From Panopea generosa (taxonomy: Eukaryota; Mollusca; Bivalvia; Adapedonta; Hiatellidae): a stretch of DNA of 64,000 bases. Below are positions 14,640 through 60,645 of this stretch, piece by piece. The number at the start of each line of letters is the position of its first letter. Position 1 is the stretch's first letter. The notes beneath the pieces are model-generated. The model made no database searches and was not told the DNA's origin. It saw only the letters and a program-made list of their open reading frames with translations. The position numbers and the translations under genes were made by a program. The stretch covers positions 42,495,616 through 42,559,615 of the forward strand of contig CM055901.1 of assembly GCA_029582155.1 (NCBI GenBank), in the 5' to 3' direction.

Positions 14640-17600
14640 AAATATACACTTAATATCACATAACACTCGACGTGACTTACACGTAATATCACATAACAAT
14701 CGAAGTGCCTTACACTTAATATCACATAACACTTGACGTGACTTACACTTAATATCACTTAAAAATCGGTGTGACTTACATTTGATATCACATAACAATC
14801 GATACGACTTACATTTAATATCACATAACACTTTACGTGACTTACACTTAATATTACATAACAATCGGTGTGACTGACACTTAATATCACATAACACTCG
14901 AATGACTTACACCTAAAATCACATAACAATCGACGTGACTTACACTTATTATCACATAACAATCGATGTGACTTACATTTAATATCATATAACACTCGAT
15001 GTGACTAATATTTCATAACAATCGATATGACTTACACTTAATATCACATAACAATCGATATTACTTACACTTAATACAACTAAACAATCGATATGACTTA
15101 CTCTTAATATCACATAACAATTGATGTTACTTACACCTAATTTCAACTAATAATCGATATGACTTACACTTAATATCACTAAACAATCGATATGACTAAC
15201 ACTTTATATCACATAACACTCAACGTGACTTACACTTTATATCATTTAACAATCGGTGTGACTTACATTTGTTATCATGTAACAATCGATGTGAATTACA
15301 CTTAATATCACATAACAATCGATATGACTTACACTTAATATCATATAATTATCGATGTGACATACACTTAATGTAACATAAAATCGACGTGATCTACACT
15401 AAATATCACATAACAATTGATATGACTTACAATTATATCACATAACAACCGGTGTGACTAACACTTAATGTCACATAACCTTCGACGTGACTTACACTTG
15501 ATATCACATACCAATCGATATAACTTACATTTAATATCACATAACAATCGGTGAGACTAACATTTAATATCACATAACACTCAAAGTGACTTACACCTAA
15601 TATCACATAACAATCGACGTGACTTACACTTATTATCACATAACAATCGATTTGACTTACATTTAATATCATATAACACTCGACGTGAGTAATATCACAT
15701 AACAATCGATATGACTTACACTTAATATCACATAACAATCGATATGACTTACACTTAATACAACTAAACAATCTATATGACTTACACCTAATATCACATA
15801 ATAATCGATGTGACTTACAATTAATTTCACTTAACAATCGACGTGACTTACACTTTATATCACATAACACTCAACGTGACTTACACTAAATATCACTTAA
15901 CAATCGGTGTGACTTACACTTCTTATCACGTAACAATCGATAAGACTTACACTTAATATTACATAACAATCGATGTGACTTACACTTCTTATCACGTAAC
16001 AATCGATATGACTTACACGCTTAATATCACATAACAATAGATATGACTTACACTAAATAAAATAAACAATCCACATGACTTACTCCTAATATCACATAAT
16101 AATTGATGTTATTTACACTTAAAATCAACTAATAACCGATATGAGTTACATTAAATATCACTTAACAATCGATGTGACTTACACTTAATATCACATAATA
16201 ATCGATGTGACTTACACTTGATATCAATTAACTATCGATATGATTTACACTTAATATCAAATAACACTCAACGTGACTTACACTTATTATCCCTTAATAC
16301 TCAATATGACTTAAACTTACACTTAATATCAAATAACACTCAACGTGACTTACACTTATTATCCCTTAATACTCAATATGACTTAAACTTAATATCACAT
16401 AACAATCGATGTGACTTGCACTTAATATCACTTAACAATCGGCGTGACTTACACTTAATGTCACATAACAATCGACGTGACTTACAATTAATATCACTTA
16501 ACTTAACAACGATATGACTTAAACTTAATATCACATAGCACTTAAGGTGACTTACACTTAATATCACTTAACAATAGGTATGACTCGATCTTAAAATCAC
16601 ATAATAATCGATGTGACTTACACTTTATATCCCATAACAATCGGTGTGACTTGCATTTAACATCACACAGCAATAGGTATGACTTACACTTAATGTCACA
16701 CACCCATCGACATGAATTACACTTAATACCACATAGCAATCGTAATGACTTACACTTAATATCACATAACAATCGGTGTGACTTATATTTACTATAACAT
16801 AACACTCGATGTGACTTACACTTAATATTACATAACAATCGACGTGACTTACACCTAATATCACATAACAATCGATTTGACTTACACTTGATATCACTTA
16901 ACACTTGATATGACGTACACTTAATATCACATAACACTCAACGTGACTAACACTTAATGTCACATTACGATCGATATGACTGACACTTTATGTCACATAA
17001 CACTCAACGTGACTTACACTTAATATCACATAACAATCGATATGACTGACACTTTATATCACATAACACTCAACGTGACTTACACTCAATATCATATAAT
17101 TATCGATGTGACATAGGCTTAATGTTACATAAAATCGACGTGATTAACACTTAATATCACGTAACAATTGATATGACTTACACTTAATATCACATAACAA
17201 TTGGTGTGACTAACACTTTATGTCACATAACAATCGACGTGATTTACACTTGATATCACATACCAATCGATATGAATTACATTTAATATCACATAACACT
17301 CGATTTGACTTACACTTAATATTACATAACAATCGGTGTGACTAACACTTAATATCACATAACACTCAAAGTGACTAACACCTTATATCACATAACAATC
17401 GACGTGACTTACACTTATTATCACATAACAATCGATTTGACTTACAGTCAATATCATATAACACTCGACGTGACTAATATCACATAACAATCGACGTGAC
17501 TTACACTTGATATCACATACCAATCGATATGACTTACATTTAATATCACATAACAATCGATGAAACTAACATTTAATATCACATAACACTCAAAGTGACT

Positions 17601-20600
17601 TACACCTAATATCACATAACAATCGACATGACTTACACTTATTATCACATAACAATCGATTTGACTTACAGTCAATATCATATAACACTCGACATGACTA
17701 ATATCACATAACAATCGATATGACTTACACTTAATATCACATAACATTCGATATGACTTACACTCAATGCAACTAAACAATCGATATGACTTACACTTAA
17801 TAGCACTTAAAGATCGTTGTGACTTACAGTTAATATCACATAATAATCGATGTGACTTACACTTAATATCACTTAACAATCGATTTGACTTACACTTTAT
17901 ATCACATAACACTAAATGTGATTTACACTTAATATCACTTAACAACCGGTGTGACTTACACTTGTTATCACGTAACAATCGATGTGACTTACACTTAATA
18001 TCACATATAACAATCGATGTGACTTACACTTGTTATCACGTAATAATCGATATGACTTACACTTTATATCACATAACAATAGATATGACTTACACTAAAT
18101 ACAAATAAACAATCGATATGACTTACCCTTAATATTACATAACAATTAATGTTACTTACACTTAATATCAACTAATAACCGATATGAGTTACATTTAATA
18201 TCACTTAACAATCGATGTGACTAACACTTAATATCAGATAACAATCGATCGATGTAACTTACACTTCATATCACATAATAATCGATTTGACTTACACTTG
18301 ATATCACATAACAATCGACATGACTTACACTTATTATCACATAACAATCGATTTGACTTACAGTCAATATCATATAACATTCAACATGACTAATATCACA
18401 TAACAATCGATATGACTTACACTTAATATCACATAACATTCGATATGACTTACACTTAATGCAACTAAACAATCGATATGACTTACACTTTATATCACTT
18501 AAAAATCGGTGTGACTTACAGTTAATATCACATAATAATCGATGTGACTTACACTTAATATCACTTAACAATCGATTTGACTTACACTTTATATCACATA
18601 ACACTAAATGTGATTTACACTTAATATCACTTAACAACCGGTGTGACTTACACTTGTTATCACGTAACAATCGATGTGACTTACACTTAATATCACATAT
18701 AACAATCGATTTGACTTACACTTGTTATCACGTAATAATCGATATGACTTACACTTTATATCACATAACAATAGATATGACTTACACTAAATACAAATAA
18801 ACAATCGATATGACTTACCCTTAATATTACATAACAATTAATGTTACTTACACTTAATATCAACTAATAACCGATATGAGTTACATTTAATATCACTTAA
18901 CAATCGATGTGACTAACACTTAATATCAGATAACAATCGATCGATGTAACTTATACTTCATATCACATAATAATCGATTTGACTTACACTTGATATCACT
19001 TAACTATCGATATGATTTACAATTAATATCACAGAACACTCAACGTGACTTACACTTAATTTCCCTTAATAATCAATATGACTTACACTTAAAATTACAT
19101 AACAATCGATGTGACTTACACTTTAAATCACATAACAATCGACATGAATTACACTTAATACCACTTATACATGTAACAATCGGTGTGACTTACACTTAAT
19201 GTCACATAACAATCGACGTTACTTACAATTAATATCTCTTAACAATCGATATGACTTACACTTAATATCACATAGCACTCAATGTGACTTACAATATCAC
19301 TTACATCGATATGACTTGACCTTAAAATCACATAACAATCGATGTGACTTACACTTTATATCACATAACAATCGGTGTAACTAACACTAGATATATCTTA
19401 ACCATTGGTGTGACTTACAGTCAACATCACATAACAATCGATATGAATTACATTTAATATCACACAGCATTCGGTGTGACTAATACTTAATGTCACATAA
19501 TAATCGACGTGACTTACACTGAATACCACATAACAATCGTAATAACTTACACTTAATATCACATAACAATCGGTGTGATTTATATTTAATATAACATAAC
19601 ACTCGATGTGACTTACACTTAATATTACATAACAATCGGTGTGACTAACACTTAATATCACATAACACTCGACGTGACTTACACCTAATATCACATAACA
19701 ATCGACGTGACTTACACTTATTATCACGTAACAATCGATGTGATTTACACTTAATATCACATAACAATCGATATGACATACTCTTAATATCACATAACAA
19801 TCGATATGGTTTACAATCGATATGACTTAATCTTTATATCACATAACAATCGATATGACTTACACTTAATATCACATAACAATCGATATGACTTCTACTA
19901 AATATCACATATAAATCGATATGACTTACACTTAATACAACTAAACAATCGATATGACTTACTCTTATTATCACATAACAATTGATGTTACTGACACTTA
20001 ATATCACTTTACAATCGATATGACTAACACTTAATATCACATAACAATCTATGTGACTTACACTTTATATCACATAATAATCGATGTGACTAACACTTGA
20101 TATCACTTAACTATCGATATGGTTTACACTTAATATCACAGAACACTTAACGTGACTTACACTTAATAACCCTTAATAATCGGTGTGACTAACACTTGAT
20201 ATCTCTTAACTATTGGAGTGACTTACAGTTAATATCACATAACGATCGATATGACTTACATTTAATATCACACAAGCAATCGGTGTGACTAACACTTAAT
20301 GTCACATAACAATCGACGTGATTTACACTTAATATCACATAACAATCGTTATGATTTACACTTAATATCACATAACAATCGGTGTGACTTACATTAAATA
20401 TCACATAACACTCGATGTGACTTACACTTGATAATACATAACAATCGGTGTGACTAACACTTAATATCACATAACTGTAAACGTGACTTACACCTAATAT
20501 CACATAACAATCGACGTGACTTACACTTATCATCACGTAACAATCGATGTGACTTACACTTTATATCATATAACATTCGACGTGACTTCCTCATAATATC

Positions 20601-21146
20601 ACGTAACAATCGATATGGCTTACATTCGATATGACTTACGTTTTATACCACATAACTATCGATATTGCTTACAATCGATATGACTTACTCTTTTGCGACA
20701 TAACAATCGATATGACTAACACTTAATATCACATAACAATCGATATGACTTACACTTAATATTACATAACAATCGATATGACTTATATTTAATATCACAT
20801 TAAAATCGATATGACTTACACTTAATACAACTAAACAATCGATATGACTTACACTTAATATCACAAAACATTCGACATAACTTACACTTAATATCATATC
20901 AAAATCGATGTGACTTACAATTAATATCATATAGCACTCAGATGTGACTTACACATAATATCACATAACAATCGGTGTGATTAACACTTAATATCACATA
21001 ACAATCGGTGTGTCTAACACTTAATATCACATAACAATCGATGTTATTTACATTTAATATTACATAACAATCGACGTTTATTACATTAATCGATGTGATT
21101 TACACTAAATGTCACATGACAAACGATGTGACTTACATTTAATATC
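14640..21146. repeat. 33-bp satellite/minisatellite, main block
   Basis: The unit is about acttacacttaatatcacat followed by aacaatcgatatg (33 bp), repeated for 6.5 kb with point variants and occasional shortened or lengthened units. ATCGAT recurs in many units. Because 33 is a multiple of three, long open frames appear on both strands (for example MLCDIKCKSHRL-type and HLISLNNRCDL-type peptides). They have no gene support. Larger duplications are superimposed: about 17609-18300 is repeated at about 18300-18990 with a 692-bp offset, and a 72-bp duplication lies at about 16250/16322. Confidence 0.97.
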
Positions 21147-21409
21147 GGGTCCTCCGTGGCCGCGTGGTCTAAAGCGCCGTCTCAAGATCACTTACCTCTC
21201 ACCGCTAAGGTCGTAGGTTCGAGTCCCGATCGCTCCAAAAACTTTCTGTGAGGAAGTTTCCATTTACTTGCGGAAGGACGGTGGTTCTACTCAGTCTGAC
21301 TCCGTCTGAGGTCTTCCACCACCAGTAAAACTTGTTCTGCCATATATAACATGAAATGTGTTGAACATGCGTTAAACCAAAATACCCCCCCCCCCCCACA
21401 CACACACAC
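21147..21409 (+). mobile_element. tRNA-derived SINE, family S1, inserted in the 33-bp array
   Basis: The head has an A-box tggccgcgtggt and an intact B-box ggttcgagtcc (about 21215-21225), about 50 bp apart, as in tRNA genes with a long variable arm. The body contains cttgcggaaggacggtggtt and ctactcag. The end is a C-run and (CA)n at 21385-21409. Satellite sequence breaks off at ttaatatc on the left and resumes with ttaatacc on the right, consistent with insertion and a short target-site duplication. This copy is better preserved than the one at 11764. Confidence 0.85.
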
Positions 21410-22660
21410 TTAATACCACATAACAATCGGTGTAACTGTCACTTAATATCAAATAACAATCGATGTGAATTACACTTAATATCACATAACAATCGATGGA
21501 CTTACACTTAATATCACATTATTATCGATGTGATTTACACTTAATATCACATTATTATCGATGTGATTTACACTTAATATCACATTATTATTGATGTGAT
21601 TTACACTTAATATCACATAATTATCGATATGATTTACATTTAATATTCCATAACAATCGGTGTGAGCTACAATTAACATCACAACAACCGATGTTACTTA
21701 CACTTAATAGTCTATAACAATCGATTTGACTTACACTTAATATCCCATAACAATCGATGTGACTGTAAACTTAATATAATATAACAACCGATGTGACTTA
21801 CACTTAATATAACATATCAACCGATGTGACTTACACATATGACCCTCGATGTGACTAACAATTATAATCACATAACAATCGGTGTGATCTACACTTATTA
21901 TCTCATAACAACAGATGTAACTTTCACCTAATATCACATGACAATCGATGAGACTTACACTTAACATCACATTACAATCGGTGTGGCTTGCACTTATTAT
22001 CACATCACATTTGGTGTGGCTTTCATTTAACATCACATAACAACCGATGTGACTTACACTTAATATCATATAACACCCAATGTGACGCATATTTAACATC
22101 ACATAACAACCCATGTGACTTACACTTAATAGCACATAACAGTCGTTGTGGTTTGCACTTAAATTACACATAACAATCGACGTAACTTGCACTTAATATC
22201 ACATAACAATTGTTATGGCTTACATCTAACATCACATAAAAACCGATGTGACTTACACTTAATATAACTATCACTCATAATAACACTTTATACCACATTA
22301 CAACCGATGTGACGTACAATAAATTTCACATATTAACCGATGTGATTTAATATTTATAACACATAAAACTCAATGTGATAAACACTTAATATTCCATAAC
22401 AATCGATGTGACTTACACTTAATTTCACATAACAATGGTGTAACTTACACTAAATATCACATAACACTCGATGTGACTTACACTTAATATCAAATAACAA
22501 TCGATGTGACTTACATTTAATATCACATAACAATCTATCTTACTTACACTAAATGCCACATAGCAATCGATGATACAAATGATACTTATACAAAATACAA
22601 CAAAATAAAAATTGTCTGACTTAACACATGACAAGACTTAGACTTAATATCACGCAATCC
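21410..22660. repeat. 33-bp satellite, continuation beyond the SINE
   Basis: Same unit as the block before 21147, more diverged toward the right edge, with variants such as tatcacattattatcgatgtg (four near-identical units at about 21500-21620). It fades out near 22650. Confidence 0.95.
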
Positions 22661-40666: not shown

Positions 40667-41461
40667 ATGGCTTCAGGTACTTGTGATTCTGATTGGAGCA
40701 TACATGGACATGACGGTTCTGACACTACTGCTGTGAATGAACAAACACAGATTTCAGGTGAAAATGAACCTGTCAATATAACCCCTAAACATGGCAACTT
40801 AGATGATATGAACAATTCTAGCAGTTGTAAGGTAGATGATGATAATAGTAAAATGGCTCCTGGAAAAGATGACATGGATAATGTCATGGTGGTTACAAAC
40901 CAACCCTCAAGTGTACTCAAAGAGGGATCTGGTATACACACAGAAGATAATAAACCTGGAACTGGTAACGGAAGAGAATGCAAGGTGTCTGAATTGGAGT
41001 TTCAGCAACAAGGGATGTACCTAATAAAGAAATGGATAAAAATCATGAAGAAAAAAATATGGATATTAATACAGGTGTTGAGAAAAAAGACAAAGAGATA
41101 CAAAGTAAGACCCAACAGAGTACCAACAGCGATGTTCAAACTGGTGATAATAAAAGTGATGATGAACAAAGAAAAGCTGCACTTGCAAAGATAAGACAGT
41201 ACAACACAAATAATGATGATTATGAGTCTGATACCAACAAAGAATGTGAAGATGGTAAGCGACATATAAAAATGGGAAAAGAAGAGGAATACCTCAACAC
41301 AGATGATAAACCATATTATAAAAGAAAGCATGAAGCTTTTGAGAAGTATGAATACTTTTGGAAAACAAATGACATATACAGCCAGTGGCATCCATCTTGT
41401 TTTTCAGTTCAGGACATGACATTTAGAAATGCAGAGCAATTTATGATGTACAAAAAAGCAA
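40667..41461 (+). CDS. NADAR-domain protein gene, coding exon 1 (5' exon with frame problem)
   Basis: This exon carries a low-complexity, Asp/Asn/Ser/Lys-rich N-terminal region and the first part of the NADAR domain. The last about 45 codons (from about 41330) read EKYEYFW, SQWHPSCFSV, FRNAEQFMMYKKA, matching the family start; the Glu in AEQF is the position I expect to be the active-site acid. The donor is a|gtaagtt after 41461 (phase 1). A likely upstream acceptor, tatattttcag, ends at 40606. Two starts are possible. ATG 40667 (agaagaATGG) opens frame 2, which would stop at 41194 before the domain. ATG 41032 (agaaATGG) opens frame 1, which runs cleanly into the splice donor. The switch between 41000 and 41031 could be an indel, or be bridged by a 74-nt intron 40932-41005 (GT..TTTCAG), which restores frame. 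Conservative CDS: 41032-41461. Confidence 0.8.
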
Positions 41462-45814: not shown

Positions 45815-46075
45815 GTTTGTTTGTTTGTTTGAATGGTGTTGAGTATCCATGTCAATAACTTTTCAGTCATTTTGCGATGGTATCTATTTGAGACAGTATT
45901 CTTAGCGTTGCCACACTGGAGTATCATGACACAGTTACATAGTATAATACCCCACCAAGTCACCTTATACTGACACCAATTGAAGAAGCATCTAAGTACC
46001 ATTTTTCAAATCTTTGGTATGTGATATGACCCGGCCGGGGATGGAACCACAACCTTCCACATGCTAGGCAAGATA
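45815..46075 (-). mobile_element. tRNA-derived SINE, family S2 (diverged), in intron 1
   Basis: On the minus strand, ggaaggttgtggttccatcc (degenerate B-box) and ccggccgggtcatatc precede the usual S2 body (gatacttctt..aattggtgtcagtataaggt, gatactccagtgtggcaacg, gacagtattct region). The 3' end lies at the left (gtttgtttgtttgaatggtg). Confidence 0.7.
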
Positions 46076-46094
46076 AAAGTTGTTTATATAGCTT

Positions 46095-47368
46095 CTGTTT
46101 CGGAACTGTTTTGAGTTAACATTTATTTATATAATGTACTTTTTCTGAACTGTTGGGAGATAACTTTTGTTTATATACGTACTGTTTCTGAACTGTTTCA
46201 AGATAATATTTGTTTATCTGCATACCATTTCTGAACTGTTTTGAGATAACAGTTGTTTATCTACATACCATTTCTGAACTGTTGGGAGATAACATTTGTT
46301 TATCTACGTATAGTTTCTGAACTGTTTCAAGATAATATTTGTTTATCTTTCCTACCGTTTCTGAACTGTTTCAAGATAAAATTTGTTTATCTACATACTG
46401 TTTCTGAACTGTTTTGAGATAACATTTGTTTATCTACGTACTGTTTCTGAACTGTTTCAAGATAACATTTGTTTATATAATGTACTGTTTCTGAACTGTT
46501 TTGAGATAACATTTGTTTATCTACATACCATTTCTGAACTGTTTGAAAATAACATTTGTTTATCTTTGTACTGTTTCTGAACTGTTTCAAGATAACATAT
46601 GTTTATCTATGTACTGTTTCAAGATAACATTTGTTTATCTATGTACTGTTTCTGAACTGTTTTGAAATACCATTTGTTTATCTACATACTGTTTCTGAAC
46701 TGTTGGGAGATAACATTTGTTTATCTATGTACCGTTTTTGAACTGTTTCAAGATAACATTTGTTTATCTATGTACTGTTTCTGAACTGTTTTGAGTTACC
46801 ATTTGTTTATCTACATACTGTTTCTGAACTGTTGGGAGATAACATTTGTTTATCTATGTACCGTTTCTGAACTGTTTCAAGATAACATTTGTTTATCTAT
46901 GTACTGTGTCTGAACTGTTTCAAGATAACATTTGTTTATCAATGTACTGTTTCTGAACTGTTTTAAGATAACATTTGTTTATCTACATACCATTTCTGAA
47001 CTGTTGGGAGATACCAATTGTTTGTCTGTATGTTTCAGAAATGTGAGGAGTTTAATAAGCAGCTGTTATATATAGATGATGTTTCAGAATTGTTGGATGA
47101 TTAACGTTTGTTAATCTGTATGTTGTTTCAAACGCAACTTATTAATTATCTCTATGAAATTTCTACTATAGAATTATTGGGAAGAAATAACATGCTTGTT
47201 TATATATTGTCCCACAAATGTTGGAATATAACATGTTTATCAAAAACCTCATGGGTATAGAACTGTTTGTCTCTGTGCTGTTTAACAACTGTTTGGAGAT
47301 GACAGTCATTTATATCTTGGTTTTAAACTGCTATGAGATATTAAATATTTGCCTTAATGTTATTTCAG
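46095..47368 (+). repeat. 43-bp array derived from the intron 1 acceptor / exon 2 start
   Basis: The unit is about gtactgtttctgaactgttt, caagataacatttgtttatc, tat. The core tttctgaactgtttggaga matches tttcagaactgtttggggat at the true acceptor and exon 2 start (47364-47383) with two mismatches in the shared part. Copies become more degenerate toward the exon (tttcagaaatgtgaggag at 47034, tttcagaattgttggatg at 47081, atagaactgtttgtctct at 47257, taacaactgtttggagat at 47283, taaactgctatgagatat at 47324), and exon 2 itself is the next unit, 43 bp on. In most units the acceptor AG is lost (CAG to CTG). Confidence 0.85.
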
Positions 47369-47520
47369 AACTGTTTGGGGATGATCGTGTTGCAAAAAAA
47401 ATTTTAAAAGCTGACACACCACGGGAAATAAAGTCGCTTGGGAGAAAGGTTAAACCATTCCATGAAGATACCTGGAACTATCATAAGTTGCATGTTGTCA
47501 AAGAAGGCAACATGGCAAAG
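47369..47520 (+). CDS. NADAR-domain protein gene, coding exon 2
   Basis: A 152-nt exon. Its acceptor is aatgttatttcag|aactg and its donor gcaaag|gtaaaat. It enters in phase 1 (a from exon 1 plus aa makes Lys) and leaves in phase 0. It encodes (K)LFGDDRVAKKILKADTPRE, then IKSLGRKVKPFHEDTWNYHK and LHVVKEGNMAK. The pattern K-x-FGD, I-L-x-A-x-TPRE-x-K-x-LGR-x-V-x-x-F, W is that of the NADAR/YbiA middle segment. NADAR proteins act on ADP-ribose-type or related N-glycosidic substrates; in bacteria members include YbiA and enzymes removing ADP-ribose from guanine. The animal role is not known to me. The first about 15 nt and last 36 nt are the seeds of the flanking arrays. Confidence 0.92.
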
Positions 47521-50500
47521 GTAAAATATAACATTTTTAAGTGATATGTTGTAAAAGTAAGCAACATTGCAAAGGTACAATATAATATTTTTAAGTGATA
47601 TGTTGTAAAAGTAAGCAACGTTGCAAAGGTACAGTATAATATTTAAAGTTATATGTTGTCAGAGAATGCAACTTTGCAAAGGTACAGTATAGCGTTTTAA
47701 GTTATATATTGTTAAAAATGGCAACATTGCAAAGGTACAATATAACATTTTAAGTTATATGTTGTCAAATAAGGCAATATTGCAAAGGTGCAATATAACA
47801 TTTTAAGTTATATGTTGTCAAGGAAAGCAACATTGCAATGGTGCAATATAACATTTTAAGTTATATGTTGTCAAGGAAAGCAACATTGCAAAGGTGCAAT
47901 ATAACATTTTAAGTCATATGTTGTCAAAGAAGGCAATATTGCAAAGGTGCAATATAACATTTTAAGTTATATGTTGTCAAAGAAGGCAGCGTTGCAAAGG
48001 TGCAATATAACATTTTAAGTCATATGTTGTCAAAGAAGGCAACATTGCAAAGGTGCAATATATCATTTTAAGTTATATGTTGTCAAAAAAAGGCAACATT
48101 GCAAAGGTACAGTATAACATTTTAAGTTATATGTTGTCAAAGAAGGCAACATTGCAAAGGTGCAATATAACATTTTAAGCTATATGTTGTCAAGGAAAGC
48201 AACATTGCAAAGGTGCAATATAACATTTTAAGTTATATGTTGTCAATGAAAGCAACATTGTAAAGGTGCAATACAACATTTTAAGTTATATGTTGTCAAA
48301 GAAGGCAACATTGCAAAGGTTCAATATAACATTTTCAGTTATATGTTGTCAAAGAAGGCAACATTGCAAAGGTGCAATATAACATTTTAAGTTATATGTT
48401 GTCAAGGAAAGCAACATTGCAATGGTGCAATATAACATTTTAAGTTATATGTTGTCAAGGAAAGCAACATTGCAAAGGTGCAATATAACATTTTAAGTCA
48501 TATGTTGTCAAAGAAGGCAATATTGTAAAGGTGCAATATAACATTTTAAGTTATATGTTGTCAAAGAAGGCAGTGTTGCAAAGGAACAATATAACATTTT
48601 AAGTTATATATTGTCAAAGAAGGCAACATTGCAAAGGTGCAATATAACATTTTCAGTTATATGTTGTCAAGGAAAGCAACATTGCAAAGGTGCAATAAAG
48701 TATTTTAAGTTATATGTTGTTAAAGAAGGCAATATTGCAAAGGCACAATATAACATTTTAAGTTATATGTTGTCAAAGAAGGCAACATTGCAAATGTGCA
48801 ATATAATATTTTACGTAATATGTTGTCAAAAAAGACAACATTGGACAGGTACAGCATAACATTTTAAATAATATGTTGTCAAAGAAAGCAACATTGCAAA
48901 GGTGCAATATAATATTTTAAGTTATATGTTGTCAAAAAAGGCAACATTGGAAAGGTACAGTATAACATTTTAAATTATATGTTGTCAAAGAAAGCAACAT
49001 TGCAAAGGTACAATATAACATTTTAAGTTGTATGTTGTCAAAGAAGGCAACATTGCACAGGTGCAATATAACAATTTAAGTTATATGTTGTCAAAGAAAG
49101 CAACATTGCAAAGGTACAATATAACATTTTAAGTTATATGTTGTCAAAAAAGGCAACATTGCAAAGGTACAGTGTAACATTTTTTGTTATATGTTGTCAA
49201 AGAAGGCAACATGTTGCAAAGATGCAATATAACATTTTAAGTTATATGTTGTCAAAGAAGGCAATATTGCAAAGGTGCAATATAACATTTTAAGTTAATT
49301 GTTGTCAAAGAAGGCAGGATTGCAAAGGAACAATATAAACTTTTAAGTTATATGCTGTCAAAGAAGGCACCATTGCAAAGGTACAATACAACTTTTTAAG
49401 TAATATGTTGTCAAAGAAGGCAACATTGCAAAGGTATAATATAACATTTTAAGTTATATGTTGTCATGATATAACTTAAAATATGAAAAAGAAAGCAACA
49501 TTGCAAAGGTGCAATATAACATTTTAAGTTATATGTTGTCAAAGAAGGCAACATTGCAAAGGTACCATACAACATTTTAAGTTATATGTTGTCAAAGAAG
49601 GCAACATTGCAAAGGTACAATACAACATTTTAAGTTATATGTTGTCAAAGAAGGCAACATGTTGCAAAGATGCAATATAACATTTTAAGTTATATGTTGT
49701 CAAAGAAGACAATATTGCAAAGGTGCAATATAACATTTTAAGTTAATTGTTGTCAAAGAAGGCAGGATTGCAAAGGAACAATATAAACTTTTAAGTTATA
49801 TGCTGTCAAAGAAGGCACCATTGCAAAGGTACAATACAACATTTTAAGTAATATGTTGTCAAAGAAGGCAACATTGCAAAGGTACAATATAACATTTTAA
49901 GTTATATGTTGTCAAGATATAACTTAAAATATGAAAAAGAAAGCAACATTGCAAAGGTGCAATGTATCATTTTAAGATATATGTTGTCAAAGAAGACAAC
50001 ATTGCAAATGTACAATATAACATTTTAAATTATATGCTGTCAAAGGAGGCAACATTTAAAAGGTATAATATAACATTTTAAGTTATATGTTGTCAAAGAA
50101 AGCAACATTGCAAAGGTGCAATATAATATTTTAAGTTATATGTTGTCAAAAAAGGCAACATTTCAAAGGTACAGAATAACATTTTAAGTAATATTTTGTC
50201 AAAGATGGCGACATTGCAAAGGTGCAATATAATATTTTAAGTTATATGTTGTCAAAGAAAGCAACATTGCAAGGGTGCAATATAATATTTTTCGTATATG
50301 TTGTCAAAGAAAGCAACATTGCAAAGGTGCAATATAACATTTTAAGCTATATGTTGTCAAGGAAGGCAACATTGCAAAGGTACAATATAGGATTTTAAGT
50401 TATATGTTGTCAAAGAAGGCAATATTACAAAGGTGCAACATAACATTTTAAGTTATATGTTGTCAAAGAAAGCAACATTGCAAAGGTGCAATATAATATT

Positions 50501-51960
50501 TTAAGTTATATTTTGTCAAAAAAAGGCAACATTGTAAAGGTACAGTATAACATTTTAAGTCGTATGTTGTCAAAGAGGGCAACATTGCAAAGGTGCAATA
50601 TAACATTTTAAGCTATATGTTGTCAAAGAAGACAACATTGCAAAGGTGCAATATTACATTTTAAGTTATATGTTGTCAAGGAAAGCAATATTGCAAAAGT
50701 GCAATATAACATTTTAAGTTATATGTTGTCAAGGAAAACAGCATTGCAAAGGTGCAATATAACATTTTAAGTTATATGTTGTCAAAGAAGGCAATATTGC
50801 AAAGGAACAATATAACATTTTAAGTTATATATTGTCAAAGAAGGCAACGTTTCAAATGTGCAATACAACATTTTAAGTAATATGTTGTCAAAGAAGGCAA
50901 CATTGCAAAGGTACCATACAACATTTTAAGTTATATGTTGTCAAAGAAGGCAACATTGCAAAGGTACAATACAACATTTTAAGTTATATGTTGTCAAAGA
51001 AGGCAACCTTGTAAAGGTACAATACAAAGTTTTAAGTTATATGTTGTAAAAGAAGGCAACCTTGCAAAGGTACAATTCAACGTTTTAAGTTATATGTTGT
51101 CAAAGAAGGCAACATTGCAAAGGTGCAATACAATGTTTTAAGTTATATGTTGTCAAAGAAGGCAACATTGCAAAGGTGCAATACAATGTTTTAAGTTATA
51201 TGTTGTCAAATAAGGCAACATTGCAAAGGTGCAATACAACGTTTAAAGTTATATGTTGTCAAAGAAAGCAACATTGCAAAGGTGCAATAAAAATATTTTA
51301 AGTTATATATTGTCAAAGAAGGCAACATTGCAAAGGTGCAATACAATGTTTTAAGTAATATGTTGTCAAAGAAGGCAACATTGCAAAGGTGCAATACAAC
51401 ATTTTAAGTTATATGTTGTCAAAGTAAACAACATTGCAAAGGTGCAATAAAAATATTTTAAGTTATATGTTGTAGATGTTGTCAAAAAAGGCAACATTGC
51501 AAAGGTGCAATATAACGTTTTAAGTTATATGTTGTCAAAGAAGGCAACATTGCATAGGTGCAATATAACGTTTTAAGTTATATGTTGTCAAAGAAAACAA
51601 CATTACAAAGGTGCAATATAATATTTTAAGTTATATGTTGTCAAAGAAGGCAACATTGCAAAGGTGCAGAATAACATTTTAAGTTATATTTTGTCAAAAA
51701 AGGCAACATTACAACGGTGCAATATAACATTTTAAGTTATATGTTGTCAAAGAAGGCAACATTGCAAAGGTGCAATACAACATCTTTAGTTGTATGTAAT
51801 GTTGTCAGAGAAGGCAAGATTGCAAAGGTACAATACAACATTTTAAGTTGTATGTAATGTTGTCAGAGAAGGCAAGATTGCAAAGGTACAATACAACATT
51901 TTAAGTTGTATGTAATGTTGTCAGAGAAGGCAACATCGCACCGTTACAAAACAACATTTT
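47485..51960 (+). repeat. 53-bp array derived from the exon 2 / intron 2 donor junction
   Basis: The unit is aagttatatgttgtcaaaga, aggcaacattgcaaaggtgc, aatataacatttt (53 bp), about 84 units by length. It aligns with aagttgcatgttgtcaaaga, aggcaacatggcaaag|gtaa, aatataacattttt at 47485-47538, about 48 of 53 positions. It contains 36 nt of exon (codons KLHVVKEGNMAK), the donor GT and 17 nt of intron. Nearly all units keep AAGGT; most read AAG|GTGCAA or AAG|GTACAA against the true AAG|GTAAAA. Array units have ATTGC where the exon has ATGGC. A segment of about 448 bp (49210 and 49658) is duplicated, each copy ending in an inverted atataacttaaaat piece. Confidence 0.93.
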
Positions 51961-52194
51961 GTCTGAATTGGTTTCAAATCAACAACTTCTAAATGAGTGT
52001 ATTTGATTAATATTTCATGTGTATAATTATGTAACACAGGATAAGATTGATATTTGTCAATGTCGGCCATATTTTACAATAGTTGTAATCCCTTTTTAAC
52101 TAAATGTTTCATTAAAAAACTTGTTTCGGATCAGTAACATCTGTAACCAGAGTTTATGTGTTTAACTGAAAGTCATATAGTGGGCTGTAAAATT

Positions 52195-55100
52195 ATGAAA
52201 TACAGTTCATGTTGGATATTTGTCAGTGCACTGTGTTGTATAATTATAAAATACAGTTCATGTTTAATATTTGTCAGTGCACTGTGTTGTATAATTATAA
52301 AATACAGTTCATGTTGGATATTTGTCAGTGCGCTGGGCTGTATAATTATAAAATACAGTTCATGTTTGATATTGGTCAGTGCACTGTGATGTATAATTAT
52401 AAAATACAGTTCATGTTTGATATTGGTCAGTGCACTGTGTTGTATAATTATAAAATACAGTTCATGTTTGATATTTGTCGGTGTGATGGGCTGTATAATT
52501 ATAAAATACAGTTCATGTTTGATATTTGTCAGTGCACTGTGTTGTATAATTATAAAATACAGTTCATGTTGGATATTTGTCGGAGTGCTGGGCTGTATAA
52601 TTATAAAATACAGTTCATGTTGGATATTTGTCAGTGCGCTGGGCTGTTAATACAGTTCATGTTTGATATTTGTCAGTGCACTGTGTTGTATAATTACAAA
52701 AAACAGTTCATGTTGGATATTTGTCAGTGCGCTGGGTTGTATAATTATGAAATACAGTTCATGTTGGATATTTGTCAGTGCACTGTGTTGTATAATTATA
52801 AAATACAGTTCATGTTTAATATTTGTCAGTGCACTGTGTTGTATAATTATAAAATACAGTTCATGTTGGATATTTGTCAGTGCGCTGGGCTGTATAGTTA
52901 TAAAATACAGTTCATGTTTGATATTTGTCAGTACACTGTGTTGTATAATTATAAAATACAGTTCATGTTGGATATTTGTCATTGCGCTGGGCTGTATAAT
53001 TATAAAATACAGTTCATGTTTGATATTTGTCAGTGCACTGTGTTGTATAATTATTAAATTTAGTTCATGTTTGATATTTGTCAGTGCACTGTGTTGTATA
53101 ATTATAAAAAACAGTTCATGTTGGATATTTGTCAGTGCGCTGGGCTGTATAATTATAAAATACAGTTCATGTTTGATATTGGTCAGTGCACTGTGTTGTA
53201 TAATTATAAAATACAGTTCATGTTTGATATTTGTCAGTGCGCTGTGTTGTATAATTATAAAATACAGTTCATGTTTGATATTTGTCGGTGTGATGGGCTG
53301 TATAATTATAAAATACAGTTCATGTTTGATATTTGTCAGTGCACTGTGTTGTATAATTATAAAAAACAGTTCATGTTGGATATTTGTCGGAGCGCTGGGC
53401 TGTATAATTATAAAATACAGTTCATGTTGGATATTTGTCAGTGTGCTGGGCTGTTTAATTATAAAATACAGTTCATGTTTGATATTTGTCAGTGCACTGT
53501 GTTGTATAATTATAAAATACAGTTCATGTTGGATATTTGTCGGAGTGCTGGGCTGTATAATTATAAAATACAGTTCATGTTGGATATTTGTCAGTGCGCT
53601 GGGCTGTTAATACAGTTCATGTTTGATATTTGTCAGTGCACTGTGTTGTATAATTACAAAAAACAGTTCATGTTGGATATTTGTCAGTGCGCTGGGTTGT
53701 ATGATTATGAAATACAGTTCATGTTGGATATTTGTCAGTGCACTGTGTTGTATAATTATAAAATACAGTTCATGTTTAATATTTGTCAGTGCACTGTGTT
53801 GTATAATTATAAAATACAGTTCATGTTGGATATTTGTCAGTGCGCTGGGCTGTATAGTTATAAAATACAGTTCATGTTTGATATTTGTCAGTACACTGTG
53901 TTGTATAATTATAAAATACAGTTCATGTTGGATATTTGTCATTGCGCTGGGCTGTTAATACAGTTCATGTTTGATATTTGTCAGTGCACTGTGTTGTATA
54001 ATTATAAAAAACAGTTCATGTTGGATATTTGTCAGTGCGCTGGGCTGTATAATTATAAAATACAGTTCATGTTTGATATTGGTCAGTGCACTGTGTTGTA
54101 TAATTATAAAATACAGTTCATGTTTGATATTGGTCAGTGCACTGTGTTGTATAATTATAAAATACAGTTCATGTTTGATATTTGTCAGTGCACTGTGTTG
54201 TATAATTATAAAATACAGTTCATGTTTGATATTTGTCAGTGCGCTATGTTGTATAGTTATAAAATACAGTTCATGTTGGATATTTGTCGGAGTGCTGGGC
54301 TGTATAATTATAAAATACAGTTCATGTTGGATATTTGTCAGTGCGCTGGGCTGTTAATACAGTTCATGTTTGATATTTGTCAGTGCACTGTGTTGTATAA
54401 TTATAAAAAACAGTTCATGTTGGATATTTGTCAGTGCGCTGGGCTGTATAATTATAAAATACAGTTCATGTTTGATATTTGTCAGTGCACTGTGTTGTAT
54501 AATTATAAAATACAGTTCATGTTTGATATTTGTCAGTGCACTGTGTTGTATAATTATAAAATACAGTTCATGTTTGATATTTGTCAGTACACTGTGTTGT
54601 ATAATTATAAAATACAGTTCATGTTGGATATTTGTCGGAGTGCTGGGCTGTATAATTATAAAATACAGTTCATGTTGGATATTTGTCAGTGCGCTGGGCT
54701 GTTAATACAGTTCATGTTTGATATTTGTCAGTGCACTGTGTTGTATAATTATAAAAAACAGTTCATGTTGGATATTTGTCAGTGCGCTGGGCTGTATAAT
54801 TATAAAATACAGTTCATGTTTGATATTGGTCAGTGCACTGTGTTGTATAATTATAAAATACAGTTCATGTTTGATATTTGTCAGTGCACTGTGTTGTATA
54901 ATTATAAAATACAGTTCATGTTTGATATTTGTCGGTGTGATGGGCTGTATAATTATAAAATACAGTTCATGTTGGATATTTGTCGGAGTGCTGGGCTGTA
55001 TAATTATAAAATACAGTTCATGTTGGATATTTGTCAGTGCGCTGGGCTGTTAATACAGTTCATGTTTGATATTTGTCAGTGCACTGTGTTGTATAATTAT

Positions 55101-56500
55101 AAAAAACAGTTCATGTTGGATATTTGTCAGTGCGCTGGGCTGTATAATTATAAAATACAGTTCATGTTTGATATTGGTCAGTGCACTGTGATGTATAATT
55201 ATAAAATACAGTTCATGTTTGATATTTGTCAGTGCACTGTGTTGTATAATTATAAAATACAGTTCATGTTTGATATTTGTTGGTGTGATGGGCTGTATAA
55301 TTATAAAATACAGTTCATGTTGGATATTTGTCGGAGTGCTGGGCTGTATAATTATAAAATACAGTTCATGTTGGATATTTGTTAGTGCGCTGGGCTGTTA
55401 ATACAGTTCATGTTTGATATTTGTCAGTGCACTGTGTTGTATAATTATAAAAAACAGTTCATGTTGGATATTTGTCAGTGCGCTGGGCTGTATAATTATA
55501 AAATACAGTTCATGTTTGATATTGGTCAGTGCACTGTGTTGTATAATTATAAAATACAGTTCATGTTTGATATTTGTCAGTGCACTGTGTTGTATAATTA
55601 TAAAATACAGTTCATGTTGGATTTTGTCAGTGCGCTATGTTGTATAATTATAAAATACAGTTCATGTTTGATATTTGTCGGTGTGATGGGCTGTATAATT
55701 ATAAAATACAGTTCATGTTGGATATTTGTCGGAGCGCTGGGCTGTATAATTATAAAATACAGTTCATGTTGGATATTTGTCAGTGTGCTGGGCTGTTTAA
55801 TTATAAAATACAGTTCATGTTTGATATTTGTCAGTGCACTGTGTTGTATAATTATAAAATACAGTTCATGTTGGATATTTGTCAGTGTGCTGGGCTGTAT
55901 AATTATAAAATACAGTTCATGTTTGATATTTGTCAGTACACTGTGTTGTATAATTATAAAATACAGTTCATGTTTGATATTTGTCAGTGCACTGGGCTGT
56001 ATAATTATAAAATACAGTTCATGTTGGATATTTGTCAGTGCGCTGGACTGTATAATTATAAAATACAGCTCATGTTTGATATTTGTCAGTGCACTGTGTT
56101 GTATAATTATAAAATACAGTTCATGTTTGATATTTGCCGGTGTGCTGGGCTGTATTATTATAAAATACAGTTCATTTTGGATATTTGTCGGAGCGCTGGG
56201 CTGTATAATTATAAAATACAGTTCATGTTGGATATTTGTCGGATCGCTGGGCTGTATAATTGTCAAATACAGTTCATGTTGGATATTTGTCAGTACGCTG
56301 GGCCGTTTAATTATAAAATACAGTTCATGTTGGATATTTGTCAGTGTGCTGGACTGTATAATTATAAAGTACAGTTCATGTTGGATATTTGTCAGTGCGC
56401 TGGGCTGTTTAATTATAAAATACAGTTCATGTTGGATATTTGTCAGTGTGCTGGGCTGTTTAATTATAAAATACAGTTCATGTTTGATATTTGTCATTTT
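52195..56500. repeat. 51-bp array with 348-bp higher-order unit (intron 2)
   Basis: The unit is tacagttcatgttggatatt, tgtcagtgcgctgggctgta, taattataaaa (51 bp), about 84 units. A 42-bp form with a 9-bp deletion (gggctgttaatacag) marks higher-order repeats. It starts at 52641, 53601, 53949, 54348, 54696, 55044 and 55392, steps of 960, 348, 399, 348, 348 and 348, that is 42 plus 18, 6, 7, 6, 6 and 6 full units. All lengths are multiples of three, so open frames run up to 772 codons (53067-55385) and on the minus strand too. Confidence 0.97.
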
Positions 56501-57755: not shown

Positions 57756-57983
57756 TTCTCACAAAATAAGGAACTGAAAAGTCAACTTTTCAACACCTAT
57801 TCAAAGGTGTTGGTTGAAGCAAGTCCGTATGATACAGTATGGGGTATAGGACTGGCCAAAAATGATCCTTGTGCCTGGAGTAAAGAGACTTGGTGTGGTG
57901 AAAACTTGCTAGGATATATTATAACAGAGGTCAGAGATGAACTTATGGCTGATGAAGGAATCATTGAAAATGAACACAAACAG
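57756..57983 (+). CDS. NADAR-domain protein gene, coding exon 3 (catalytic C-terminal half of the domain)
   Basis: 228 nt, 76 codons, phase 0 at both ends (ttgttttccag|ttctca; cacaaacag|gtaaatg). It encodes FSQNKELKSQLFNTYSKVL, VEASPYDTVWGIGL, then WCGENLLGYIITEVRDEL and an acidic tail. FSQN-x-EL, EASPYD-x-x-WGIGL and W-x-G-x-N-LLG-x-x-x-x-x-VR-x-EL are the hallmark motifs of NADAR/YbiA; the Asp and Trp of YDTVW are expected near the active site. Joined to exon 2 it restores the expected AK-FSQN of the family, which confirms the splice. No key motif seems missing, so the domain is probably intact. Confidence 0.93.
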
Positions 57984-60201: not shown

Positions 60202-60645
60202 GTATTTTTGGATAAACTGATGAAAGGGTGTGGGACATCTGTTGATGAAGCTATAGGCAAAGATATGCAAGATACTGTTGCAATGTCAGTTGACCTTGTA
60301 ACAGAAAATGAAGCATGCAGCAGAAATAGTTCTGAACCTGATGTGAAACCAGAATTGGAAACAAAACCTGAGTCAAGAACAGACCCAGGTTTAGGAACCA
60401 ACTTGCATACAGAAAATGAATCGGCTAATAGGAACCAGCCAAGAGAAGAGCCGAGAATCAAACCAGAGCCAGAAACGATATTGTTTACAGAAGAGGGATC
60501 TACTGATAAAAACCAGCCAAGAAAAAAGACAGAGCAAAAACAGAAGGAAAAAGCAGCTCCATTAGATGAAGAATGGCATGAAGTTAAGTCCAAAAGAGGC
60601 AAACAAGTTAATTCCAAAAAAGGCAAACCTATGTCTAAAAAATAG
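60202..60645 (+). CDS. NADAR-domain protein gene, terminal coding exon 4
   Basis: The acceptor is acttgtttttacag|gtattt; phase 0; stop TAG at 60643-60645. 147 codons beginning VFLDKLMKGCGTSVDEAIGK, then a long Glu/Pro/Lys/Asn-rich tail that is very likely disordered. The tail has three loose internal repeats starting TENEACSRN, TENESANRN and TEEGSTDKN, each followed by an E-P-K-rich segment (KPELE, KPEPE), with steps of about 37 and 28 residues. Near the end, EEWHEVKSKRGK and a basic SKKGKPMSKK C-terminus could bind nucleic acid or direct nuclear import; that is inference. With the start at 41032 the whole protein is 417 residues, NADAR domain first half to middle, tail last. Confidence 0.85.
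   Translation, partial: VFLDKLMKGCGTSVDEAIGKDMQDTVAMSVDLVTENEACSRNSSEPDVKPELETKPESRTDPGLGTNLHTENESANRNQPREEPRIKPEPETILFTEEGSTDKNQPRKKTEQKQKEKAAPLDEEWHEVKSKRGKQVNSKKGKPMSKK

Follow-up and report, generated by a model that had tools for sequence, protein, structure and literature searches.

Copies of the exon-2 donor junction of a Panopea generosa NADAR gene form a kilobase-scale minisatellite in the adjoining intron

The window analysed here is a 64,000-nt stretch of contig C8 in the 1.47-Gb genome of the bivalve Panopea generosa. It contains, on the plus strand, a gene whose frame pieces from exons 1 to 3 match the Pfam domain NADAR (PF08719) with an E value of 4.3e-49 in a profile search; the query protein was assembled from the frames and carries S-E at the exon-1/2 join, where the spliced codon is K. 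Exon boundaries are splice sites read off the sequence (splice points are marked below by a slash), and all features described are on the plus strand. The coding end of exon 1 lies in an open frame at 40993..41461, directly followed by the donor AAGCAA/GTAAGT. Exon 2 (47369..47520) is 152 nt long, encodes the middle of the domain and is bounded by the acceptor TTTCAG/AACTG and the donor GCAAAG/GTAAAA; the introns on its two sides measure 5.9 and 10.2 kb. Exon 3, with the SPYDTVWGIG half of the domain, was placed at 57756..57983 from its splice sites and NADAR match, and exon 4 starts at 60202. The element of interest is an array of 53-bp units that begins inside exon 2 and runs on into intron 2.

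Tandem Repeats Finder (TRF) delimits the array at 47484-51940, with a period of 53 and 82.6 copies over 4.46 kb; its left end falls 37 nt inside exon 2. The original prediction, which had put the array at 47485..51960, was therefore right to within about one unit at the ends. It had also proposed that the unit derives from the exon-2/intron-2 junction, matching it at about 48 of 53 positions, and the wrap-around alignment gives exactly this figure, that is, five differences between the exon copy and the consensus. When an 82-nt window around the exon-2 donor was aligned with the unit, it scored 107, which corresponds to a z of 25.7 over 100 dinucleotide shuffles and places the exon end far closer to the array than chance would. 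In the TRF unit register the founder copy (47484..47537) comprises 37 nt of exon 2 (the prediction had 36) and, as predicted, the first 17 nt of intron 2. Its 54 nt are owed to one extra T, found again among the copies only in the first downstream one. Behind the founder the wrap-around alignment yields 82 full copies (47538..51959), 74 of which keep GT at the donor register; the predicted row of decoy donors behind the true one is there, in this number rather than the estimated 84 or so. Resemblance to the exon shows no gradient with distance from it among the copies (Spearman -0.11, p 0.30). When a 159-bp segment of the array was searched for across the genome, with very common words skipped, all 38 matches fell within this array. 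Altogether, the data support the array being an amplification of the NADAR gene's own exon-2 donor junction. Its head-to-tail units lie within the 10-100 bp, and its length within the 0.5 to tens of kb, of a single-locus minisatellite, and it extends across an exon-intron boundary, as exon-boundary tandem repeats do.

Other arrays of the window were tried as junction copies and rejected. Comparison of 18 units with six junctions (108 pairs) gave no further pair above z 2.3 beyond the one just described and those involving a 43-bp array in intron 1. The latter occupies 46071..47368, regular up to 47027 and degenerate from there to 47368, where its last decayed copy meets the exon-2 acceptor. 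Array and acceptor (TTTCAGAACTGTTTGGGGAT vs TTTCTGAACTGTTTCGAGAT) agree at 17/20 positions across the intron-exon boundary; the match score of 25 is reached by 3/1906 background 60-mers (0.16%). Paired with the exon-2 acceptor, the 43-bp unit has a z of 4.6, the next best after 25.7 among all pairs; with the donors of exons 1 and 2 it has 3.6 and 2.6, respectively. These figures suggest that the intron-1 array decays into the exon-2 acceptor, on weaker evidence than that for the donor array; exon 2 would then probably have a junction-derived array on each side.

Two NADAR paralogues lie on the same contig (C8:34323703-34325505 and C8:34437984-34439789), about 114 kb from each other and 8 Mb from the window gene. 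Their profile scores are equal or nearly so, and the pair is probably a recent duplication. Both are recovered as separate exon matches that split at profile position 97-103, as in the window gene. The one in locus L008, read directly, has an exon that ends VVKKGNMEK at the same boundary, followed by the donor AAG/GTACAT, so that exons 2 and 3 are split alike. In the corresponding intron of both paralogues, TRF finds no array. Because the junction encodes conserved NADAR sequence, because the array-free paralogues are split in the same way and because the array is private to its locus, exon 2 is the source of the array and not its product. Judged by these sequences, the junction predates the array. 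Intron gain would have left the intron absent from the paralogous genes, which in fact share the split. One codon gives a direction to the change: exon 2 and the L008 paralogue have the methionine codon ATG where the array consensus has ATT, therefore it is the array that departed from the exon there. Intron position +4 shows another pattern, with C in 80 of the 82 copies and in the paralogue read directly, and A in the true donor; the simplest reading, on the thin evidence of a single position, would be a change that made the true donor a better site. Separately, NADAR paralogues contain a 78-bp tandem repeat (L008 5503-5713, L010 5784-6009), which in L008, judged by eye, starts within the final coding codons and extends past the stop codon downstream.

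Within the array, four-unit blocks recur with three to four differences, both at a lag of eight units (49183/49238 vs 49631/49686) and at a lag of 11 units (47751 vs 48335). Differences from the consensus number 6, 8, 8 and 5 in the first four units and 4, 1, 6, 4 and 8 in the last five, against a mean of 3.3 in interior units; copy-to-copy difference averages 6.2 in 53. Such block duplications, together with a homogenised middle and diverged edges, are ordinary minisatellite behaviour. The units at 49450 and 49898 share a nearly identical insertion that to the eye resembles an inverted piece of the unit (ATATAACTTAA).

Most of the copies present a donor-like sequence of the predicted kind, AAG/GTGCAA in 36 and AAG/GTACAA in 14; AAG/GTACAG is found in seven. 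Strengths were scored with a generic metazoan position weight matrix (PWM) for donors. In register, the true donor scores 7.79, a value that none of the copies reaches (maximum 4.98, median 4.04), and its U1 duplex energy is -6.8, compared to a decoy median of -5.3. Conservation of the two GT columns (0.96 and 0.94) is like that of columns outside the donor (0.94), and thus there is no sign of GT purging. The frame that passes through the true donor closes at 47542-47544 (open reading frame 47191-47544), just as the original prediction stated.

Arrays of the same kind were found in other genes, contrary to the uniqueness that the original prediction implied. Behind a kinesin exon in locus L060, whose end reads YNEKVHDLLDLKG, stand 81 copies of a 43-bp unit; this array measures 3.5 kb and has its start 20 nt inside the exon (C11:30821300-30826900, minus strand, spanning L060 and L132). 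Among its 74 sites of the form A[AG]G/GT[TA]AGT is the true AGG/GTTAGT, and by PWM none of the other 73, the decoys, is weaker than the true donor. Shorter donor arrays occur in L019 (41 bp x 5.2; true donor 12.7, decoys up to 12.0, with two copies within 0.7), L037 (34 bp x 5.2; decoys up to 12.7 vs true 11.1), L079 (51 bp x 2.7; decoys equal to the true donor) and L094 (108 bp x 3; decoys 8.7 vs true 7.3), while L014 has a single extra copy of its own donor region. Hence, the weakness of decoys relative to the true donor is no general rule: in L037, L060, L079 and L094 at least one copy is equal or better. On the acceptor side, L024 (44 bp x 5.2) repeats TTTCAG/ATGAATTCC and L036 (60 bp x 2.6) repeats CTGCAG/GTTTGCTAT. 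That such arrays exist in other genes indicates that they are real products of ordinary local duplication. The NADAR array is a true and striking member of a recurrent class in this genome.

The loci came from a sample of exon matches of the myosin head, kinesin and SNF2 families, taken in search-listing order. From 60 myosin and kinesin loci, L046 (a near copy of L045) and 10 with a donor score below 5 were dropped, leaving 49 donors; dropping L046 and loci with an acceptor score below 4 left 49 acceptors. Sixty further exon ends, the first in E-value order without a stop inside the match, contributed 52 donors after eight with a score below 5 were dropped, for a total of 101. In the kinesin list five fitting ends were passed over: three of one dispersed fragment (profile 253-316), a near copy (C3:4503874) and C11:30788406. 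Several sampled loci are exons of the same or of duplicated genes and are not fully independent. Donors were placed with the PWM described above; in L014 the GT chosen lies about 9 nt past the likely true donor. The rate test was designed after the 30 myosin loci had been inspected. As a side observation, the short kinesin stretch at profile 253-316 recurs on C1, C5, C16 and C19, as if dispersed by a mobile element.

When a 40-mer across each junction was searched for within 500 nt, 4/49 donors and 2/49 acceptors proved to be copied within the intron, compared to 42/441 (donor side) and 29/441 (acceptor side) of control windows located 100-900 nt inside the intron; for windows in the exon, 60 nt ahead of the donor, the count was 0/49. 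A 280-nt downstream search at a score of at least 30 found copies of 6/101 donor 40-mers. For control windows at intronic distances of 100, 150 and 200 nt the counts were 10, 13 and 13 of 101, or 36/303 when pooled (Fisher p 0.13), and reversed sequences gave 0/101 at each position. At the strictest score (at least 44) the counts were 6/101 for donors and 23/303 for control windows. Five of 102 donors lie inside TRF arrays of period at least 15; arrays of this sort make up 7.8% of the flanking sequence at the 60 larger loci. By these counts, donors are duplicated as often as the intronic background or somewhat less often. The myosin loci had at first made donors look like hot spots, a view abandoned once the intronic control windows had been counted.

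We think it likely that the NADAR array represents the ordinary birth of a minisatellite that chanced to include a splice junction, at a rate no higher than in introns, and that it is tolerated by virtue of exon definition. A local tandem duplication, drawn from a genome-wide habit of tandem duplication with nothing special to splice sites, would have happened to span the exon-2/intron-2 junction and founded a minisatellite, which would then have grown by duplication of multi-unit blocks while its interior was homogenised. Because the copies would land downstream of an intact exon, the exon and its donor would stay untouched and the array would become intron. The decoys would be mostly ignored, the donor nearest the exon's own acceptor winning; such exon definition is to be expected for exon 2 since it is a short exon with long introns on both sides. 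The true donor would also be favoured as the best in-register site by PWM. In human minigenes with identical donors 52 nt apart behind exon-defined exons, the upstream donor is described as the only one used, and in events of near-equal strength it is preferred when both introns exceed 250 nt (PMC9225289). The minigenes described there resemble the present case in placing identical donors about 50 nt apart 3' of one exon; they differ in having two designed donors in a human setting, as opposed to dozens that evolved naturally. An exon-proximal rule of this sort would fit the harmlessness of the array. We infer that the array is neutral and that its decoys are not used.

Several points weigh against this interpretation. 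Array copies could serve as donors or slow splicing. The decoys were predicted to be weaker than the true donor, which holds in register by PWM, yet two of the 82 copies are at or below the true donor's U1 duplex energy. Moreover, two off-register sites that the original prediction did not mention, AAA/GTAAGC in the first copy (GT at 47557..47558) and again at 47611, score 7.92, marginally above the true donor, itself mediocre at 7.8; intron 2 has two more of this kind further along. Conservation over all nine donor columns is a little lower than in the remaining columns (0.91 vs 0.94). The pattern at +4 would be in keeping with selection for a stronger true donor once the array existed, although this is one site, and the 6% of copied donors against 12% of control windows hints at a mild purging of junction copies, a difference that is not significant. 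As to the published donor rule, it comes from human cells and designed minigenes, and the same source reports about 60% downstream donors in one tally made without matching for strength, as well as skipping of the larger exons when both donors were weakened (PMC9225289).

The foremost alternative is that the array is functional, its weak donors holding U1 snRNP so as to slow or tune exon-2 splicing, or diverting it to isoforms that contain a stop, with array length setting the output. The retention of GT in most copies, the stop met soon after reading past the true donor and the pair of off-register donors that score as high as the latter would all suit such a role. We nonetheless consider it unlikely, as GT columns are no better conserved than others, donor copies in unrelated genes arise at a rate not above background, and the paralogues' intron does without an array. 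It is improbable, too, that in this genome tandem arrays arise preferentially at splice donors, as might happen if R-loops form there or if AGGT is prone to nicking: five donor-derived arrays in a small sample (L019, L037, L060, L079 and L094) and two acceptor-derived ones (L024 and L036) could give that impression, but neither donors nor acceptors exceed their intronic controls (6/101 vs 36/303 and 2/49 vs 29/441). A dispersed satellite or mobile-element repeat might have entered the intron and imposed its own sequence on the end of the exon; the window is rich in arrays and has an open frame (67-780) that by eye resembles reverse transcriptase. This is very hard to reconcile with an exon end that retains conserved NADAR codons and the paralogue's junction, and with the confinement of the 159-bp matches to this array. 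Finally, a short junction duplication inflated by simple assembly error is scarcely credible because the copies differ from one another and show block structure.

Work by Zhuo et al. (2007) and Rogers (1989) is said to derive introns from tandem arrays, in the AGGT duplication model of intron gain. As in that model, the tandem copies seen here bear splice signals; unlike it, where a new intron is made, an old intron common to the paralogues merely grew. In the polyubiquitin gene UBC, a tandem array of dual-specific AGGT splice sites is reported to be used in splicing (PMC10809524). AG/GT is likewise present in most units of the NADAR array. In UBC as described, however, the monomers are coding and the sites used, whereas the 53-nt unit breaks the frame, meeting the stop at 47542-47544, and has no pyrimidine tract before AG. 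Recursive or dual-specific splicing was considered for the array and rejected on this last ground.

The closest published relatives are smaller. Human duplicated genes in segmental duplications contain minisatellites across exon-intron boundaries that average 30 bp x 4, or 160 bp (PMC2812944; De Grassi and Ciccarelli 2009). Both there and here a minisatellite expanded over such a boundary; in the human cases described, the repeats can be exonic or spliced out, and consequences for splicing are considered. The NADAR array differs in size (53 bp x 83, 4.5 kb) and in having an 81-copy counterpart in another gene. Furthermore, the human repeats are supported by transcripts, while the copies past the true donor in NADAR would be intronic by the argument given above. 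Our searches of an open-licence library brought up no kilobase-scale array built from the donor of its own exon.

What decides between identical competing donors is an old question in splicing research that has been addressed with designed minigenes (e.g. PMC9225289). The NADAR array and its kinesin counterpart, whose 73 decoys rival the true donor by PWM, provide ready-made natural experiments on this choice, and RNA from one individual would show how absolute exon-proximal donor choice is. The arrays also suggest that, in this genome, a splice junction undergoes duplication about as readily as the sequence of an intron does; this is relevant to how introns grow and to the model in which they originate by tandem duplication. 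Tentatively, and at somewhat less than even chances, the genome may harbour a whole class of donor-junction minisatellites, some of them kilobases in length, with up to about 80 donor copies, often as strong as the true site, that are ignored behind constitutive exons. If junctions are indeed duplicated near the intronic rate, the spliceosome would have to follow a near-absolute first-donor rule for exon-defined exons, at thousands of exons by extrapolation from 6/101.

The 53-bp array is not the only long one in the vicinity. A second multi-kilobase array in intron 2, at 52186-56496, consists of 86 copies of a 51-bp unit and has one frame open for 773 codons; by eye it is related to a motif that is also present in the paralogue's intron (AATACAG..TTTGATATTTGTCA). 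The largest array of the window, with a 33-bp unit, extends over nearly 8 kb at 14645-22572.

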